64,000 nt of DNA from Chrysoperla carnea (taxonomy: Eukaryota; Arthropoda; Insecta; Neuroptera; Chrysopidae), in contig NC_058342.1 in the NCBI RefSeq assembly GCF_905475395.1, forward strand, positions 16,712,640 through 16,776,639, in the 5' to 3' direction. Under the pieces are notes generated by a model that had not been told where the DNA came from, ran no database searches, and worked only from the letters and a program-made list of their open reading frames with translations. Within the stretch, counting starts at the first letter, position 1. Every line of letters starts with the position of its first letter. The position numbers and the translations under genes are program-made. Below are positions 3,101 through 57,000 of the stretch, piece by piece.

Positions 3101-6100
3101 CTACTCTTATCTTCCTTATTCTTTTATCAAATTCCATGATTACCCCTCATTTTCAAGGTAATTATGTCTAGGTTTGACGAAAAATATACTCACGATCTAA
3201 AAATGTAAAGCTTAGGAAAAAATACGCTAGACAAATAATTTGAAAAATATCATAAATTTTAATTCATAAGTTTCTTAGGCAAAGATGTTGGTTTTTACAA
3301 ATGCTCTTCTAATACTTTAGACATATAATACTAAAAACATTATTAGGCAAGCACGTTAGTTTTTACAAATGCTCTTCTAATACTCTACACATATAATTAC
3401 TATTTTTAATGCATGTTCGGCTAACATTAATTTAAGAACTTTTGATTTTTTCATCACTTTTCTACGCAATTTGTTATTTGCTGTTTTTAGCAGCGGGTAC
3501 AGGGTTCAACGGGTTACGGGTACACCGGGAACGGAATTCCTCACGGATCGAGCTTGATGGAATGCAATTTGTTTTAATGAATACTATAATATTTATTTAA
3601 AGTATGTATTACATTTATTGTAAGCTTCTGATGTTCATAATTATTTCATTATTTAAAAAAAATTTTAATGCGGTGTCGTGCTTATCACGCAATGGACGAA
3701 GGGTTAATGATCATTTTATTTTAGAAAATGGTATAGCTATAAAACCTAAAATCAATGCGTCAGTCCTCTTACATCACGTTTTAGTTGGTATTGATATTGA
3801 AAATTTTAGGTTTCACCAAGATACCACAAACTAGATTTTCAATAAATAGAGCGCCGATGTTAAGTGAATCCTCACGAGTTTGGCTGAACGCAGCCAATGA
3901 CATTTTTATCGTTCTTCGTTTTTTTTTTCTTCAAATCGCACTTGATTTTTTTTATGATTCCGTACTAAATTAATATATACTTACTTCACACATTTGTAAT
4001 TGAAATAATCGACGCTCCTTTTCCATTTCATCAGCAATCTCTGCACTGGTAACTTCTGTACGTATTAAACCTGCTTCTTTTGCTTGTTGTTTTTTCTCTT
4101 TTTCAATTTTTACATACTTTGATTCATAATCTTTCCATGCCTTATCAAATGGTCGCTTTAAATCTCCTTTCACTCCTCTTAAATCACCTTTTAATAAACT
4201 ATCCAATGGAAACATTACTATATTATTTATATTTTGCATCTAAAATCAAGGAAATAAAAAAAAAAAAAAGTTTAAGTTTAATTTTTTTTAAATTAAAAGT
4301 TATTAAGCATTAATTTGAATTTTCCATAATTATTGCATATACAGAATGATTCATTAAAAAAGAAAAAGATACAGGGATAAAATAAAAATTAAGATGGCAA
4401 GATTTCATTTTTACAGGATAATGATTTTTCTTTGTGTTGGAATTATTTTGTGAGAGTTCCTTGACGATGCGAGGGGGTTTCAATTAATACGTCAGCACTC
4501 GCTTAATGAGCATTTTGCTCACGCTCGATTTAAAACATAAATAACTTTTATTTTTCAAAAGGAATATGTATTTGAAAAAGTTCTATCTTCATATACCTTT
4601 TCAACCTATCTATAGTTTTTAAAAATATAATTATTTCAAGTTATTCAGAATTTGTGAGAATGTCTCTTATCACGAGAGTAAAAGTGTAAGCAATTTTGTA
4701 CTCGTTAGTTCAATATAAATCATACTCGGTAAATTAAAAAAACTTATGGTGGAAATATGATGAAATTAGTTAAAATAAATTTAATTATTTAGATTATTTG
4801 TCTGCTCTAATATTTTCAATCTCAAACATCATGCAATAATCACGTAATCAAACTATTTTTAATAAGCTAGTGCATCAAAAAATAAAATTATGTAGAGGTT
4901 ATGATTTACAAAATTAAATATTATTTAATGCGAGAAATATTTGACACATGTGCAGAACGCGTGAGCAAATTTCTCATCACGTGACAAAAAATTACCAAAC
5001 GATTGACACGAGTGCTGACGGATTAATTGTACAGAAAATCAGGTATTTAAAATCAAATTCTAGATACTTTCGATATTAAAATAATCTGACTTATCCAGAA
5101 TTTAAAAATTGTCTATCATTTTTAGATTTTTCCAGGCCGATCACCACGCAACAATTTCGCTACGCAAAAATTTTAGCAATCACACTGTATGTTTTTGAGT
5201 TAAGATACTTTAAAATTTAATAACATCACGAGAGTAGTTAAAGGTTAAATTCAAGTATATAATTTTATAATAAATTACATGGAAAATCCAATTTTTTATT
5301 TAAAAAATAATAATCTAAAACCAAATTAATCACCAATGTTTTCATCAAAGCTGATAATTCTTTGGTGACAACAGCAAATTTTAAAAAAGCTGCACCAATA
5401 TCTGGTTCTTGATCGCGATTCATGGCATTGTTACCTAATTTTTCTAATGCTCGTGCTAAATACATTTCATTATCTACATGAGCTGTAACAAAAAATTAAA
5501 ACGTTCAAAATAAAATTTCCAAAAATGTCTTATGAACTGCTTTAAGTCAGTGTTTTTCAAACTTTCTATAAACCACAGTCATATATATATATACAAGTCT
5601 GTTAACGCTATATAAAATGTATTAGGAACATATGTTCCCTTATTGGTGCACGCGTTACTTCCCAAAACTGCTACATAGCAACGCCACCAGTATCCAATCC
5701 AAACCACTGGCCAATAATTTATTTATTTACTTATTAATAATTATTTTTATTTTAGTAAATATTATTGTCAATTAATTAAAATAATTTATTAACTGAATGA
5801 AAATATAAATAGAATTTAAACAAAATTAAAACTTGTTTATTTATTTTAAATTTTCAACTAATACCGCTATTTGGATACGATATATGTGGCGCTGTCTAGT
5901 GTTTAATAATGTAAACACTAGACAGCGCCACATTAAAACATTTTCATTAAGAAACCCATCGTTTTGTCAGAAGTTAAATATATTGACTGTGCTATGAACA
6001 TTTTTTTTTTTTTGAACTAGAAAATAATGTTCTTATCGCAAAATTAGCGGGACCTTCGAAGAAAGGTCGGGAGGGGTCTTCCGCCCACCTAATCGTAATA

Positions 6101-12069: not shown

Positions 12070-12640
12070 AGTTAAATTTTTGTACCCTGTATATATCAAA
12101 TTTTGGTATAGGTGTTCATAAAGTCACTTAATTAATCTATTTCCGATTGCCCGGTTGCCTGTCTGTTTGTCAGCACGATAACTCAAAAACGAAAAAAGAT
12201 ATCAAGCTACTAATTATACCGTGCTCAGGACGTAAAAACATAGGTCAATTGGTAGGACCCATTTTGTAAACCGTAAGAGATAGAACAAAAGATTAAGTGC
12301 AAAAATGTTCCTTATAAAAAAATTAACAACTTCTGTTTGAAATATTTCTTCGCAAAAATCACTGTTTATCCATGAGGGCGAAAATTATCACAAAACTTTG
12401 GTGTCCATTTCATCCAAAATTATAAAAGATAGGGAATTAAAAATTTGCAGGTAGCTTCAACTATCAAACCATCATAATTGTGTTGATCTTTTAAACTTTC
12501 CTAATTTATTAAAAATAATGCAAACATTGACATTCAATACTTTCTATACATGGTATTTCAACAATTAACTCAGTCGAATGTTTGTTTTCACTTGTTAATT
12601 CAGTATTGAATATACTCTTGCAAGTTATCTATTTTTTCAA
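12070..12640 (-). repeat. RepA dispersed repeat, copy 3
   Basis: Reverse copy of the family at 2290-2935. It starts near cctgtatatatcaaattttg, passes through the gcctgtctgtttgtcagcac block, aaccgtaagagatagaaca and catgagggcgaaaatt, and ends near acatggtatttcaacaatta and tgttttcacttgtta. Nearly full length compared with copies 1 and 4. Confidence 0.7.
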
Positions 12641-22149: not shown

Positions 22150-23040
22150 ACCAAGGTATGTTTCCCCTATAGAATATTGTTAAATGTAGTATAATAAAGC
22201 GGAAATTACGAAAATTTTCGTTTGATTTGCTTGGTTTTCAAATTGAAGACTGAAGAAGTGAAGAAAATTGGATAAAATTTAATATAATAACAAGTGAAAA
22301 CAAACAATTGACTGAGTTAATTGTTGAAATACCATGCATAGTCAGTGTTGATTTCTTTATCACATTACACATACAAACATGTGACACATACATAACTGAT
22401 AATCAAGTATAGTACATATTATAAAATTTCCGCCTACTTGGCGCCCTCACGGGGAAACAGTGATGTTTACGAAAAAATGTTTCAAACAAAAGTTGTTTAA
22501 TTGATAAGGAACATTTTTTACATTTAAACTTTTGTTCTATCTCTAACGGTTTACAAGACCAAATTGACCTATGATGCTCATTTACGAACTTGACCTCACT
22601 TTTTACGTCCTGAGTACGCTGTAGAAATTTCAGCTCGATATCTTTTTTCTTTTTTTAGTTATCGTGTCCACAGACGGACGGACGGACGGACAACCGGAAA
22701 TGGACTAATTATGTGATTTTATGAACACCTATGACAAAATTTTTTCCTAGCATCATTATTTTTAAGCGTTACAAACTTGGGACTAAACTTAATATACTAT
22801 GTATATTTCATATATACATGGTATAATATAGTATTCTAATACTAGAGCATACATGAATTTTGGTTTCCAAGGGAGCATACAAATTCTACAAAAAAATTCA
22901 AAAAAATGGCCTCCTAATGTATGATTTCAAATTTCACTTTAAGCGTCGAATTCTCGAAAACTAAGCCGAAACTCGAAAATGGGTGCTCTTCATTTTCGCT
23001 TTATTATACTATATTTAACAATATTCCATCCTTAAATCGA
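22150..23040. repeat. RepA copy 4 inside a larger inverted-repeat element
   Basis: Outer arms pair: gaatattgttaaatgtagta near 22172 against its near-inverse (tactatatttaacaatattc) near 23017. Between them, 22255-22825 is a plus-oriented RepA copy with all landmarks, including cagacggacggacggacgga and a 3' end ctatgtatatttcatatata followed by catggtataa. Either RepA inserted into another element or these arms are the true ends of the family. Confidence 0.6.
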
Positions 23041-23169
23041 GGCGCCACAGTTATCGTAAGTACTCGAGCCATTAAATTTGTATGAGTATACCTTTGTATG
23101 CTTTCTCAGATCTGATAAAACAATAATTTCATTATTTACTAATTATTATATTCTAATAATAATATAATA

Positions 23170-23682
23170 GGTTGGCTGATAAGTCCCCGGTCTGACACAT
23201 AAATGGCGTCGCTAGTATTAAATGCATATTATTTTTATATAGTACCAACCTTCAAATGATTCGTGTCAAAATTTGACGTCTGTAAGTCAATTAGTTTGTG
23301 AGATAGAGCGTCTTTTGTGAAGCAACTTTTGTTATTGTGAAAAAAATGGAAAAAATGGAATTTCGTGTTTTGATAAAATACTGTTTTCTGAAGGGAAAAA
23401 ATACAGTGGAAGCAAAAACTTGGCTTGATAATGAGTTTCCGGACTCTGTATTTTTTCCCTTCAGAAAACAGTATTTTATCAAAACACGAAATTCCATTTT
23501 TTCCATTTTTTTCACAATAACAAAAGTTGCTTCACAAAAGACGCTCTATCTCACAAACTAATTGACTTACAGACGTCAAATTTTGACACGAATCATTTGA
23601 AGGTTGGTACTATATAAAAATAATATGCATTTAATACTAGCGACGCCATTTATGTGTCAGACCGGGGACTTATCAGCCAACC
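23170..23682. mobile_element. mariner-derived perfect palindrome
   Basis: Two 237-bp arms (23170-23406 and 23446-23682) are exact reverse complements around a 39-base spacer. Each arm starts with a mariner-type end, ggttggctgataagtccccg, followed by the 5' UTR and the first codons of a mariner transposase. The frame from 23343 reads MEKMEFRVLIKYCFLKGKNT and the spacer continues it as EAKTWLDNEFPDS. The identical N-terminus is therefore encoded on both strands. No catalytic D,D residues remain, so the element is non-autonomous. If transcribed it would form a very long RNA hairpin. Confidence 0.93.
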
Positions 23683-24530
23683 TGTTAGATGTCTGGAAAC
23701 GTAAAACTAATACTAGACAGTTAAGTGCAAGCAGCGATGATTCTGGCAGGGGAAACCAGAATGTATTGGCGAAGAAGGTGGAATTAAAATTGGTGGTTTA
23801 CATATTGCAACCTCCAGCACCAGTTTGTAGTTTGGATGCAGGTGTACCTCGACTAATTGTAGTGCGAATTGTAAATAAGAATTTTAAATCCAATGCTTGA
23901 GTTCAAGAACTTGGTCGTTTTCATAGAGGTATTTATTGTGGTTTCTCAAGAAAGACTGACTCAAGTCGTCGAGAGAGCCTCGTTTTATACCCTGGGGTTG
24001 TTCTAGAGGCTTCTAGTTAAAAGAATGTTCGAAAGAAGGGTTTTATTCTATTCTATTAGCTTCTATTGTCCTTTTTCTTGTTAGAAAATCGTTAAATTTA
24101 ATAAAATTTGTATCCAGGCAGAATATTTTAAATAACTTACTTTTAACAATAAAACCCTTGAAAAAACACTAAACTTGGTTGAAATTAAAAGATTTAAATT
24201 TCGGAAAAAGCCCAAAAAGTTCGTGTCCGGTTCTGGCTTGATAGTTCTACTAGTTTCCGAGAGATGGCGCTAACAGCTCTCGGCCGCCAATTTAAAGTTG
24301 ATCATGATTATAGTTGTCGGTTTAAACAAACTTTCTAGATCATTTCTAAAATTTTCTAGAAAATTTCGAATCAATTTTGTCCGTTACACACATTTTGGAA
24401 GTTTCTAGATTATTCCAGAAATTTGTTCTAAAAATTTCCATAAGTTCACATGAGTAAGAAAAGGACATATATATTTTTTCACATTTTTTCCGCCCACCTC
24501 AACCAAACTTCTCCTTACTTTCACCAGGAG
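23683..24530. other. unidentified sequence next to the mariner palindrome
   Basis: An open frame (plus, 23604-23900) starts inside the mariner arm and runs into unique sequence rich in mixed codons (SASSDDSGRGNQNV, LVVYILQPPAPVCSLDAGVP). It is not recognised, lacks a splice context and is probably a transposon remnant. A following block (agcctcgttttataccctgg) resembles LTR-like non-coding DNA. No gene is called. Confidence 0.3.
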
Positions 24531-24534
24531 ATCA

Positions 24535-24702
24535 AGGGATATATACCGCCCCATCGGGAAGTTGATTGGAGTTGGTGGTCATAGAGAAAACGCGGTCTTC
24601 ACGTACTAACATACTAGCATTATATTATATATATATTATATACGCGTTTTCTCTATGACCACCAACTCCAATCAACTTCCCGATGGGGCGGTATATATCC
24701 CT
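24535..24702. repeat. perfect 60-bp inverted repeat, 48-base loop
   Basis: Arms 24535-24594 and 24643-24702 are exact reverse complements (gggatatataccgccccatc at the outer edge, gtcatagagaaaacgcg at the inner edge). The loop is AT-rich. There is no similarity to the neighbouring mariner. The right arm is followed by an (AT)n run. Confidence 0.93.
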
Positions 24703-24730: not shown

Positions 24731-25108
24731 GAATTTATTTTTCGTTAAAAAAAAATTTTAGTACGGGAGAATTTAGGAAGGGAGTATAATAAAATGTACC
24801 CCCTTTTTTTTATTTTTTTTTATTACGTTTATTGCACGTATTGGCCGCTCTGAAAAACTTTTCACAAAATTATTGCCCGTTATTTCATACTCGATATACA
24901 ATTGAAAATGTGTCGGGTGTTGAAACATATCAAGATGATTCAATCTATTGCAAATCGATACATCATTCGACGGCGCTTATTCAAATATACAATAGTGCAT
25001 AAGGGATCATCCATTAATTACGACACACGTTAAAAGGGGGTACATTTTATTATACTCCCTTCCTAAATTCTCCCGTACTAAAATTTTTTTTTAACGAAAA
25101 ATAAATTC
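24731..25108. repeat. perfect 77-bp inverted repeat
   Basis: Arms 24731-24807 and 25032-25108 are exact reverse complements, including identical homopolymer lengths (gtacgggagaatttaggaag in the left arm). The right arm lies inside the element at 25006-25376; the left arm is a lone inverted copy of part of it. A third diverged piece occurs near 25770-25820. Confidence 0.9.
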
Positions 25109-25376: not shown

Positions 25377-25840
25377 AATGAAAAAATTGATTTTTTCAAT
25401 ACTAACTGACCAGTGCGAAACTTCCGCACCCCAATTATGCAGGCTACCTCCAAGTAAAGACAATTTTTACATCCAAAATTGGGAGACGTAATTTAATTTT
25501 GAAACAAATCTCTTTCCATATTGAATCCTGTAACGGCATATTGGGCTATTGACTTAATTTATCTTATTTTAGCTAATGGGTCATTCATAAATTACGACAC
25601 ACATATTTTGCGATTATTAAACACCCAGTCCCTTTATGCCCTCTCCCCTCGTTGGTGTGACGTCACATATTTTATAATTTAATAGAAATAGTTAAAATAA
25701 AACAGCACGATAAACGATTGATTACGTTAATAAGAGATTCAAATTAATAAGAGATTCAAACTTTCGTTCAAAAAAATTTATAGTACGGGAGAATTTAGAA
25801 ATGGATTAAGTATAATAAAAATTTGGTTTTTATGGGTTAG

Positions 25841-26190: not shown

Positions 26191-26440
26191 TTTTTCCTAA
26201 GCGGTAAATTCTTAGACAGTAAGTCTAGTTTTGGCCAATAACTAGCATGATAAGCTTTAAAATGAAGTGTAAATGATGTAATTTGATAAAAGGAAGGGGT
26301 TGAGTAATAATATTTAATTTTTTTACAGAAAATGGATTCTTAAGAAAACTTCAGAAAACAAGAATAAATCTACATGATTTATCTTACAATGATAAATTAA
26401 AAGCATAAAAAAATTATCAAGTATTGAAAAAATTATATAT

Positions 26441-27390
26441 ATGGGTTACCCGTTATGGAGTAGAGTGAGCTTGAAAACCTAGGTCACGTTGTTTGCGTAT
26501 GGTGTGCGCCTATGCACACCCAACATTTTTCATCGAATATTGTCACCTCATCAACTCATCGAATATATAACTCATTTGGGTTTTAATACAGTTAGTTTAT
26601 CGAGCGAACTTAAAAAAGATTTGAAAACATGCTAAATTTAAAGGCATTCTTTCACTACTATCTGATTCATTTATATAACTTTCAAAGAGTTCATCTATGG
26701 GTTACTCGTTATGGAGTAGAGTGAGCTTGAAAAGCTAGGTCACGTTGTCTGCGTAAGATGTGCGCCTATGCACATCCAACATTTTTCATCGAATATCGTC
26801 GCCTCATCAACTCATCGAATATATAACTCATTTGGGTTTTAATACAGTTAGTTTATCGACCGAACTTAAATAAGATTTGAAAACATGCTAAATGTAAAGG
26901 CGTTCTTCTGCCACTATCTGGTTCATTTATATAACTTTCAAAGTAATAATCTATGGGTTACCCGTTACGGACTAGAGTGGCCTTGAAAAGCTAGGTTACG
27001 TTGCCTGCGTAAGATGTGTGCCAATGCACATCCAACATTTTTCATCGAATATAGTCGCCTCATCAACTCATCGAATATATAACTCATTTGGGTTTTAATA
27101 CAGTTAGTTTATCGACCGAACTTAAATAAGATTTGAAAACATGCTAAATGTAAAGGCGTTCTTCTGCCACTATCTGGTTCATTTATATAACTTTCAAAGT
27201 AATAATCTATGGGTTACCCGTAACGGACTAGAGTGGCCTTGAAAAGCTAGGTTACGTTGTCTCCGTAAGATGTGTGCCTGTGCACATCCAACATTTTTCA
27301 CTTTTTCATCGAATATCGTCGCCTAATCAACTCATCAAATATATAACTCATTTAGGTTTGAATACATTTTTATCGACCGAACTTAAAAGA
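26441..27390. repeat. 256-bp tandem array, about 3.7 copies
   Basis: Units begin atgggttacccgttatgga at 26441 and similarly at 26697, 26953 and 27209, an exact 256-bp spacing. Each contains cctatgcacatccaacattt, tcatcaactcatcgaatata and tttatcgaccgaacttaaat. The last unit is cut near 27390. Copies 2 to 4 are closer to each other than to copy 1. This is the pattern of a small satellite or minisatellite locus. No open frame is conserved across the units. Confidence 0.93.
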
Positions 27391-54026: not shown

Positions 54027-57000
54027 CTACGTGGCCCAATTCTCACCAACACGAGATCGTTTCATCATTGGGCCACTATCATAATCGGAACTACCACTAT
54101 GCCGGTTGTCGCCAACTCCTCCACTTCCTGGTGATGGCATATTTGTCGGTGTAATCGTTCCTTAAAATGGAAAAAATTCATATTAAATTTGTTTATTTTT
54201 AAAAAAAACATTTAAATTTCAAACAAAAGTTGTTTATTTTTATAATGAACTTTTTTTTATATCTCTAACGGTTGACAAGATGGATGTTAAGGACCGAAGG
54301 AAGACCCAATTGGTTAATTTTTCTCATTTACGAACTCGACCTCACTTTTTAGGTCCTAAGAATGCTATAAAAATTTTAGTTTAATATCTCTTTTCGTTTT
54401 TGAGTTATCGTGATCACAAACGGACAGATCAATAGCTGGAAATGCATTTTTTATTTGATTTTATGAACATCTATACCAAAATTTTGTTCGTAGCATCAAT
54501 ATTTTTGAGTCTTGAGGACCATTAGCGCAGACCATTACTTTCTATCACCAAAACAAAAAGTCAACAATCGTTAAATCGCAATACCTAGGCGAAAAATTAA
54601 CGTTTGCCTTACGAGAGATTATTCGATTACCAAACCGTTCAAATATCAAAATATGTTACTATTTTCGTTAACCATAATGTTTTACTTGTCACTTGTCAAA
54701 AAAAACCACATTCTAGTCCAAAACACTAAAATGGCAGCACATTAAAAAATAACATCGAAAATGGAACAGCCTACATTTGAAGTTTAATTAATAATACTAA
54801 CCTGAAGTTGGTGTTAAGTGCCCAGTGGAATTCGGTCTGGGTAAACTGTGATGTGTATGTGATAAATTGAGCGAATGTGGTGAAGCCGATAAGCCTAGAC
54901 TATTACCACTCATATGCATCGTTGATCCAGTTGATGTTGGTCCATTGCCACCAGTTTGTACAGAGCCACATGATATACTACCTCCGCCAGCTCCGTGATG
55001 ATCACGTGGCGGTGATATTGGTTCACTTTTGATTTTCATTGGCAATGGTGACGATGACGGAGGTGGTGTGCTACTAGATACTGCTAGATGTGGAAGAGCA
55101 CTATATCGAAAAACAGTATAACTTTTTATTAGTTTGATCCATGCTTTCTTTTTATTAGACTGCTTCGGAAATCAGAATTGGGATAATGACACAGCAGAAT
55201 CTCTAAGGTACTTGTACACTATAGATAGAGTTGCACAACCTAGTTCAATCTCAGCGAATTGTGTACACTAAATTTAAAATTCGCTTTGCCTCAGGCAGCC
55301 TAATTCTCGTAGAACTCACGTGGAGTTAAATAATAATAGCAACAAGAAGGATTCTACAAATTTCTAGCAAATAGACCTAACTACCTTTTGTGCTCTCCTT
55401 GAGAACAATTTGTCACCTGGAGGTGAAACATATCTAGGTGGAAGGTGCTATTTGAATATAAAGAAGCTACAGGATTCTACTGATACCAAAGATACCGCAA
55501 AAAGTTCACAACTTCTCAAACGAGATTGCTCCCAGAATTGACGGGTCCAAGGTTTCGAACCTAAACATTCTACACCTGACTCCCTACGGGATTCTTAAGA
55601 TGCAAATAACATATATGGAAGTTTTTCTGTTATAATTAATCCCAGGGTCGATGGGTCCAAAGTTTCAATGCCAAACATTCGATATCTCACTCTCTATAAG
55701 ATTCCTCGATTGGAGTTTTCAAACCCCGAAGACCCAAAGTGCGGCCTGCCAGAGAAGAATTCGGCGTCTATCAGCAGAGTGTATTGACCAAGATTAATTG
55801 CTTCCTTTATTCTAGGTTCAAAAATATTAGGTACATTTCGATCCCAGCTTTTCTGGAAGGATAGACAATCCTATATTTACGATCGAAACGGTAAACCTAA
55901 ACCTTCTGTGCTATAAATCTGGATATCAATCAGCAGGATATGATTTCTGCTTTGAAGAATCACCATGTATTGACCAATAGATCTCGCTAAATATGTATAC
56001 AGGTACCTTGAAAATCAATAACTTTTTCGCAGTGACTAGTTTACTCGAACAAAATTGATATTTAACGACGACAACTATTAATTTCAGAGATATTGTCTAT
56101 AATTTGAATGTTTATACCCAAAATATGTGAAAAAAGTTACCTTTGGTGAGCTAATGAAGTTTGAAGTTGCTGTTGTGTGCTCCATGGAAGAGAACCGAGA
56201 CCAATATCTGTGCTCATACTAAAGTCCTGTGCGCTAAATGATGTCATTGAACTGGGATAGCTGAGTCCTGGTATTGATGGTGTCTGTAAAGCAACAACCG
56301 GTGTATTCAAGGACGATGTGGACATTTTGTTGTGATGGTTCTACAAAGATAGTATTAGTGTTATAGTTAATTTTCATTTGGTGTATAAGATGCCCCCGCG
56401 CTGACGTTCAACAAAACACAAATGAAATGAGAGCTGCCACCATTTTTTGTTGTTCTTCTTAATTTTTTTTATGTTAGTCACTAGTTGTTATTGAAACTCT
56501 GAGGATAACAAACTAATTCGTATCGCGCTATTTAAGCGAATTTCTACTTATTGCATTTTACGACTCAGTTGGTAAAGAGTTTAGCAAGTAACTCGAATTA
56601 ATTTTCGAACTAACCTTACTTCAAGTGAAGGATGTCACAACAGTTTGAATTCCAGGACATTATGACATAACAGAGACTCCTCCTCTTCCTTCTTTGGACC
56701 CCTCCTCTTCCAAGGGAGGGGTCCAAACTTTTGTTGATTATGTCAGGTCATAAAGTCAATAAAAACAAGAAATTCTATTTTCGAGAATAGAACATTATTA
56801 GGTCAAAATATGATATTCAGTCATTATTTTTCAAGTTAATTCTGCGAGGTACAGAAAAAAATTTCCCAAAACCCTGTGTGCGTTGACAACTACACCGCGA
56901 TGTATATTGGGCGAGGTTAAACCGGGTTTTTAGTCGTTTTCAGACATTATATAAGATATGTTTTGAAACGACGCAAAGTTGACAAAGAGCGTTCATTCGT

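Follow-up and report, generated by a model that had tools for sequence, protein, structure and literature searches.

A perfect mariner hairpin in the lacewing Chrysoperla carnea is very probably one copy of a young fold-back MITE family

INTRODUCTION

Is the long, perfect hairpin of mariner sequence in this stretch of the Chrysoperla carnea genome a special locus, or one member of a transposon family? The window analyzed here is 64,000 nucleotides long, and a preliminary description of it treated the hairpin as a single locus: a 237-bp arm repeated in exact inverse around 39 bases, with another inverted repeat nearby. Its perfect arms were ascribed to very recent formation, gene conversion, or an assembly fold-back, and a role as a self-made silencing trigger was proposed. 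Full-length mariners sharing the same end were named as something to search for.

The answer reached below is that the hairpin is very probably a copy of a young, high-copy, nonautonomous MITE whose parent is a Himar1-type mariner with open-frame copies still present in this genome. This reading includes the formation of the element, its spread, correction between its arms, and the cutting of its tips.

RESULTS

The hairpin ends at transposon tips

Pairing without mismatch extends over 238 bp (23169-23406 with 23446-23683), rather than the 237 bp first given; the exact inversion around 39 nt (23407-23445) stands. When the arms are run out to the transposon tips, they measure 240 bp and carry one mismatch (23168 T versus 23684 G). 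The tips are the limit of pairing: TA is present on each side, and the flanks beyond are unrelated. A mariner terminal repeat forms the start of the left arm, which also contains an ATG at 23346 with the first transposase codons; this bears out the earlier reading of its content. The predicted RNA fold of 516 nt of the hairpin has an energy of -419 kcal/mol, compared with a mean of -102 kcal/mol (sd 5.9) for 100 shuffled sequences, and chance is therefore ruled out as its source. The features of the element are as follows.

23165..23166, no strand: left TA target-site duplication, beside the left tip
23167..23685, + strand: whole fold-back mariner MITE, 519 bp, delimited by pairing extent and genome copies
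23167..23193, + strand: left terminal inverted repeat, 27 bp, tip ATA, equal to the 5' end of parents L133, L135, and L138
23167..23406, + strand: left arm with mariner 5' end, leader, ATG, and first codons, from arm pairing and parent comparison
23346..23448, + strand: Himar1-type transposase codons 1-34, running into the fold-back, from translation and parent comparison
23407..23445, + strand: spacer, 39 nt, the unduplicated remainder of the 5' fragment, from arm pairing
23446..23448, + strand: CTG microhomology at the fold-back junction, parent GGACTCTGCCCC versus MITE GGACTCTGTATT
23446..23685, - strand: right arm, the 5' end copied inverted, from arm pairing
23659..23685, - strand: right terminal inverted repeat, tip ACA (TGT on the + strand), of parental 3' type by comparison with parent ends
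23686..23687, no strand: right TA target-site duplication, beside the right tip

The hairpin has a TACO1 gene on one side, with minus-strand Pfam matches at 28.7-30.8 kb, and on the other the start, near 7.9 kb on the minus strand, of a gene that we take to be ASAP-like; its PH domain scores under the Pfam cut-off. The window covers positions 16712640-16776639 of contig C6, which is probably the X chromosome, judging from order.

The fold-back recurs 500 times in the genome

The host assembly (Chrysoperla carnea inChrCarn1.1; 559,487,470 bases in 337 contigs) contains 500 exact occurrences of the 32-base fold-back junction, 233 forward and 267 reverse, compared with none for a control. A search with the 519-bp element gave 583 first-look candidates. 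All 40 that were scored match over 517 or 519 bases, eight of them exactly. For detailed comparison we used the first 100 exact-junction places, all of which lie on contig C1 (139,979,878 bases); this set is confined to copies with an unaltered junction. A flank stretch is common to only two copy pairs among the 100 copies, so that the flanks are mostly independent.

Insertion at TA sites is evident at most copies. All 20 copies at loci L003-L022 have TA on the left and 17 have it on both sides, and among 100 further copies the corresponding counts are 94 and 69, with the remainder mostly having a damaged right end. The copies are also very similar. Mean divergence is 0.57 substitutions per 454 sites (0.13%) in 95 of the 100 copies, a value that omits sites 36, 484, 190, and 330, the tips, and five copies with 11-21 substitutions.

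Since the junction recurs identically 500 times and the 100 copies compared have mostly independent flanks, the fold-back elements are one MITE family that arose from a single fold-back event. The family has the properties that define a MITE: its members are short (519 bp), lack a transposase of their own, and form many uniform copies (500) from one progenitor. The suggestion that the window holds a single special locus is not supported, given that the identical junction occurs at 500 places.

A full-length parent persists in the same genome

The full-length mariners sought in the preliminary description do exist. A pattern for the uninterrupted gene located 21 parent-like copies, each with C after the junction CTG. 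A 348-amino-acid frame is open in 11 of these, three more have frames of 347-363 amino acids, and seven have shorter ones. Three copies that were read from end to end (L133, L135, and L138) are each 1293 bp long, encode 348 amino acids, and have TA on both sides. The L133 product matches the Pfam families Transposase_1 (6e-24), DDE_3, and HTH_48, in agreement with the ∼1.3 kb, the ∼345 codons, and the DDE and helix–turn–helix domains of a mariner. The TA target-site duplication characteristic of mariners is present in the window copy, and terminal repeats, expected to be ∼28 bp, are shared with the transposase-coding element over 27 bp. Positions 3-27 of the parental terminal repeats are identical, and L133 and L135 have one mismatch, at position 2. 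In these two copies the 5' tip is ATA and the 3' tip ACA, and L138 has ATA at both ends. The arm and spacer of the window copy differ from 15 of the 21 parent-like copies at only two of 282 positions.

The parent appears to be of the Himar1 type (irritans), a name suggested by a plasmid-fragment match. The start of the transposase is 91% identical over 100 nt to a Himar1-like plasmid fragment, and the mariner end shares an exact 25-nt match with one in a phage record. We take both of these to be Himar1, and the 348-amino-acid product is presumably almost Himar1 itself. These two records are the matches from the other collections searched, and apparently they are laboratory Himar1 pieces. The first is a Proteus mirabilis plasmid record (L001 3551-3928) with a damaged Himar1-like transposase fragment that is annotated as a hypothetical protein and is perhaps derived from a laboratory vector. 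The second, phage record HMC1 (L002 2501-2590), has two inverted Himar1-like ends ∼60 bp apart and is perhaps a laboratory mini-transposon. The first 34 codons alone gave no match in Pfam or PDB, and exact mariner-end patterns gave no match in viral_contigs or genome_contigs.

A single template switch could have formed the element

Parent and MITE are the same up to GGACTCTG. After this point the parent continues with CCCC and the MITE with TATT, which is inverted 5' sequence. The inverted 5' sequence itself starts with CTG, leaving 3 bp of microhomology at the junction. The MITE tips are ATA on the left and ACA on the right.

This pattern is explained most simply if copying switched strand once, at CTG, ran back over the 5' end, and came back to the parental 3' end inside the repeat that both ends share. 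During copying of the element, for example in gap repair after excision, synthesis that had passed codon 34 would have switched strand at the 3-bp CTG match and then copied the 5' end backward. The 27-bp repeat common to both ends may then have led copying back to the 3' end of the parent. A return within this shared repeat would explain why the right tip is ACA and not ATA. The resulting 519-bp unit was inserted into TA sites ∼500 times, as the copies show, presumably by transposase supplied in trans. Because parent, junction, and ∼500 descendants are found within one genome, this route to MITEs becomes testable.

A silencing role is possible but is not needed

The hairpins might also act on the parent. 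If RNA from the window copy and its sister copies were processed into small RNAs against the parent mariner, the family would resemble Mu killer, the proposed silencer of MuDR in maize, in which part of the transposase gene and the terminal repeats are duplicated in inverted orientation. Hardly any differences separate the arm from the parental leader and first codons, and the RNA would fold almost perfectly. A silencing hairpin should have a target of nearly the same sequence in its own genome, and 15 of the 21 parent-like copies, with the two differences in 282 positions noted above, provide one. In contrast, parents with an open frame persist (11 of 21 copies), and origin and spread as a MITE require no such role. 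A silencing function is possible by analogy, although we consider it unlikely, and ordinary MITE spread is by far the better supported reading. With open-frame parents and 500 matching hairpins in one genome, self-silencing can be tested directly.

Scars accumulate at ACA tips

The two ends of the MITE have had very different fates. On the left, an intact ATA tip with TA is present in 88 of 100 copies. On the right, only 45 of the 100 copies have intact ACA with TA, six have intact ATA, and 49 have other states. Among these 49 right ends, 14 keep TAACA with bases lost just inside it, six have ACA without TA, three carry substitutions, five have a core that cannot be read, and 21 show other changes, in many cases loss of 1-3 tip bases.

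The same bias is seen across the genome. When ends with the exact 17-base core were counted, with MITE and full-length ends mixed and "intact" meaning with TA, 87 ACA ends were scarred and 255 intact, compared with two scarred and 523 intact for ATA (Fisher P 7e-36). By hand tally of the 87 rows, shortened ends beside TAACA have deletions of 1 to 8 bases in 13, 17, 7, 15, 2, 12, 19, and 2 cases, respectively. Only three shortened ends beside TAATA occur genome-wide, and one of these is an ACA scar beside TAA. Parent-like copies follow the pattern as well: all 21 have kept an intact ATA tip at the 5' end, while the 17 readable 3' tips comprise 12 damaged, four intact ACA, and one ATA.

With arms that hardly differ otherwise, the MITE separates the effect of the tip from that of the remainder of the end. 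The site of transposase cutting seems to be decided by one tip base. The end states suggest that transposase cuts the ACA end and hardly cuts the ATA end, and that one-ended breaks would be rejoined with end bases left on the flank and a few element bases lost. The two cuts of mariner are staggered by 3 bp (PMC5714172), so that end bases retained on the flank, together with loss just inside, are the expected trace of cutting and rejoining. A poorly cut ATA tip sits awkwardly beside 500 transpositions, which implies that cutting at ATA would be slow and not dead.

The scars could instead follow from the side of the element or from the inner sequence of the end. The two ends of the parent do also differ internally, from position 28, and copies with exchanged tips, relative to the spacer, are few (three of 100). 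However, the bias persists in the MITE, whose arms are nearly the same past the tip. Two of the three exchanged copies (L063 and L112) are scarred on the ACA side, L058 is scarred on neither, and none is scarred on the ATA side. We therefore regard an effect of side or inner sequence as quite unlikely and favor the tip base. In one additional copy, L113, the right tip is ATA, and damage to the left tip has made its type illegible.

The arms have corrected each other

Comparison of each site i with its partner 520-i across the 100 copies reveals paired changes. At site 36/484, 57 of 99 copies have G-C, 29 A-T, and five T-A, and eight are unpaired; the unpaired ones could be recombinants between copies. 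Site 163/357 is T-A in 93 of 98 copies and G-C in the other five. Private complementary changes are found in one copy each at 87/433 (1/97) and 127/393 (1/99). Parent-like copies have G at 36 (20/21), T at 163 (20/21), C at 87 (21/21), and A at 127 (21/21), and thus the alternative paired states are derived.

Outside sites 36 and 190, all seven doubly changed partner cells are complementary, representing three different pairs, although five of the seven, all at 163/357, are probably one event. Chance predicts 0.47 complementary double changes, and a control in which partners were slid by 1-15 columns either way gave five double hits in total over 30 shifts. Over the same sites, 118 cells are changed on one side only versus seven that are paired. 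Arm correction is therefore real and not dominant.

Site 190/330 is mismatched in 72 of 95 copies. The others are T-A (16, the window copy included), A-T (six), and T.T (one), and all 21 parent-like copies carry A at 190. The T.T copy is what inversion of the inner part would produce. Since the common copy is mismatched here, the perfect arms of the window copy are a corrected state and not the common state of the family. These patterns suggest that near-perfect arms occasionally serve as templates for each other, whereby single mutations would become paired and the spacer would sometimes flip.

Could the arms be alike merely because the family is young, with no correction between them? The low mean divergence given above (95 of 100 copies, with the four variable sites omitted) and the preponderance of unpaired arm mutations are compatible with this idea. 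Youth alone is nevertheless very improbable as an explanation, given complementary changes at four partner pairs, polarized by the parent, and resolution of the 190/330 mismatch in both directions. Arm-to-arm correction thus remains the preferred reading, and among the three sources of perfect arms considered in the preliminary description, recent formation and gene conversion both apply.

The third source, an assembly fold-back, does not. Fold-back artefacts usually show perfect arms and a short spacer, as seen here. We give an assembly or library artefact practically no credence, and reject it, as pairing does not continue past the transposon tips, outside which come TA and unrelated flanks, the same junction occurs at 500 places, and the assembly was made from PacBio HiFi reads (PMC10116181).

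One other copy, L075 (in L152, about 4290-5690), was considered as a palindrome extended into its flank. This candidate was rejected because an older inverted repeat surrounds it (82% alike, ∼1.4 kb, in a 9.9-kb stretch), and insertion close to the center of that palindromic repeat accounts for the arrangement equally well. The flanks of L075 show near-perfect symmetry over ∼82 bp, and its tips are ATA at both ends.

Neighboring hairpins appear to be separate events

The second mismatch-free inverted repeat, reported 850 bp away, is exact over its 60 bp. We also found a 77-bp hairpin that is absent from the preliminary description, and both lie within 1.5 kb of the mariner hairpin.

24535..24702, no strand: separate perfect 60-bp hairpin, arms 24535-24594 and 24643-24702, 48 nt between arms
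24731..25108, no strand: separate perfect 77-bp hairpin, arms 24731-24807 and 25032-25108, 224 nt between arms

Comparison within the window revealed no match between the 60-bp hairpin and the mariner arm, and its pattern gave no match in viral_contigs. A TA duplication is missing from its flanks, and the sequence in which the second arm is embedded is rich in TA. Both characteristics suit a local inverted template switch, which is what this hairpin looks like. The 77-bp hairpin has a full-length match only at the window locus, with pieces elsewhere in the genome that are 72-94% alike. Both hairpins look like events separate from the mariner hairpin.

Other repeats in the window include a piece of the 77-bp hairpin arm at 25762-25820 (85%) and a tandem array at 26440-27387 (256-bp unit, 3.7 copies, 92% alike). 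A dispersed repeat family, 73-91% alike, occupies four places (2315-2910, 12098-12584, 22284-22828, and 54217-54509).

DISCUSSION

The MITE family offers hundreds of natural replicates, both for the effect of a tip base on transposase cutting in vivo and for the frequency of arm correction in a long animal palindrome. A broader scenario would join these two phenomena. The base at tip position 2 may have made the lacewing mariner and its MITE one-ended cutters, with the ACA break repaired from the other arm. Such repair would keep the palindromes near-perfect and carry tips across, and the hairpins would waste transposase. We consider this scenario doubtful. If it is true, and if the dispersed hairpins are transcribed, they would yield double-stranded RNA against the intact parent.

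Several known systems share features with the lacewing family. Relative to Himar1, the left tip of the MITE is ATA versus ACA in the phage record, and the window copy lacks a transposase of its own. Mu killer, like the lacewing MITE, is an inverted duplication made from the transposase and ends of its own parent. The difference is that Mu killer is one locus with demonstrated silencing, whereas the lacewing elements are ∼500 dispersed copies known from sequence.

Lopsided or one-ended cutting, like the ACA bias proposed here, has been described for other mariners. In vitro, Mos1 and Mboumar-9 each have one preferred end that is cut more efficiently (PMC4505599). SETMAR cuts the 5' end only, leaving small extensions and deletions, HSMAR2 footprints are most variable at the 3' end, and HSMAR2 transposition is better with the outer bases CG than with TT (PMC3770610). 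Those observations come from laboratory assays, whereas the lacewing data are standing genomic copies in which a single tip base distinguishes otherwise like ends. Our search of the literature, which reached few subscription journals and some sources only in part, found no description of such one-ended scarring among mariner copies in genomes.

Arm correction has a parallel in yeast, where template switching between the arms of inverted repeats homogenizes the arms and inverts spacers (PMC8604942), as would have occurred in the lacewing MITE. The yeast repeats are short and lie within genes, whereas the lacewing arms are 240 bp long and belong to a transposon with hundreds of copies.

The closest architectural relatives are mariner MITEs of Drosophila, such as Dromar7, Dromar11, Dromar28, and Dromar36 (PMC4161770). 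Seven sublineages have a 3' portion replaced by 5' sequence, which gives them unusually long inverted repeats, like the lacewing MITE. Among the 27 MITE sublineages in that account, four are ∼460-560 bp in length and the largest reach ∼300 copies. The seven rearranged sublineages belong to the drosophila subfamily, whereas the lacewing MITE is apparently of Himar1 type. The origin of the Drosophila rearrangements was called elusive; in the lacewing, in contrast, parent, breakpoint, and microhomology are all visible. Microhomology at breakpoints has been reported for most aphid mariner MITEs (PMC5490172). Arm correction and one-sided tip scars, which characterize the lacewing family, do not appear in the portion of the Drosophila account that was consulted (PMC4161770). 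The fold-back MITE architecture is a kind of rearrangement that is already known, and it is the coevolution of the arms and the one-sided scars at the tips that are less ordinary.
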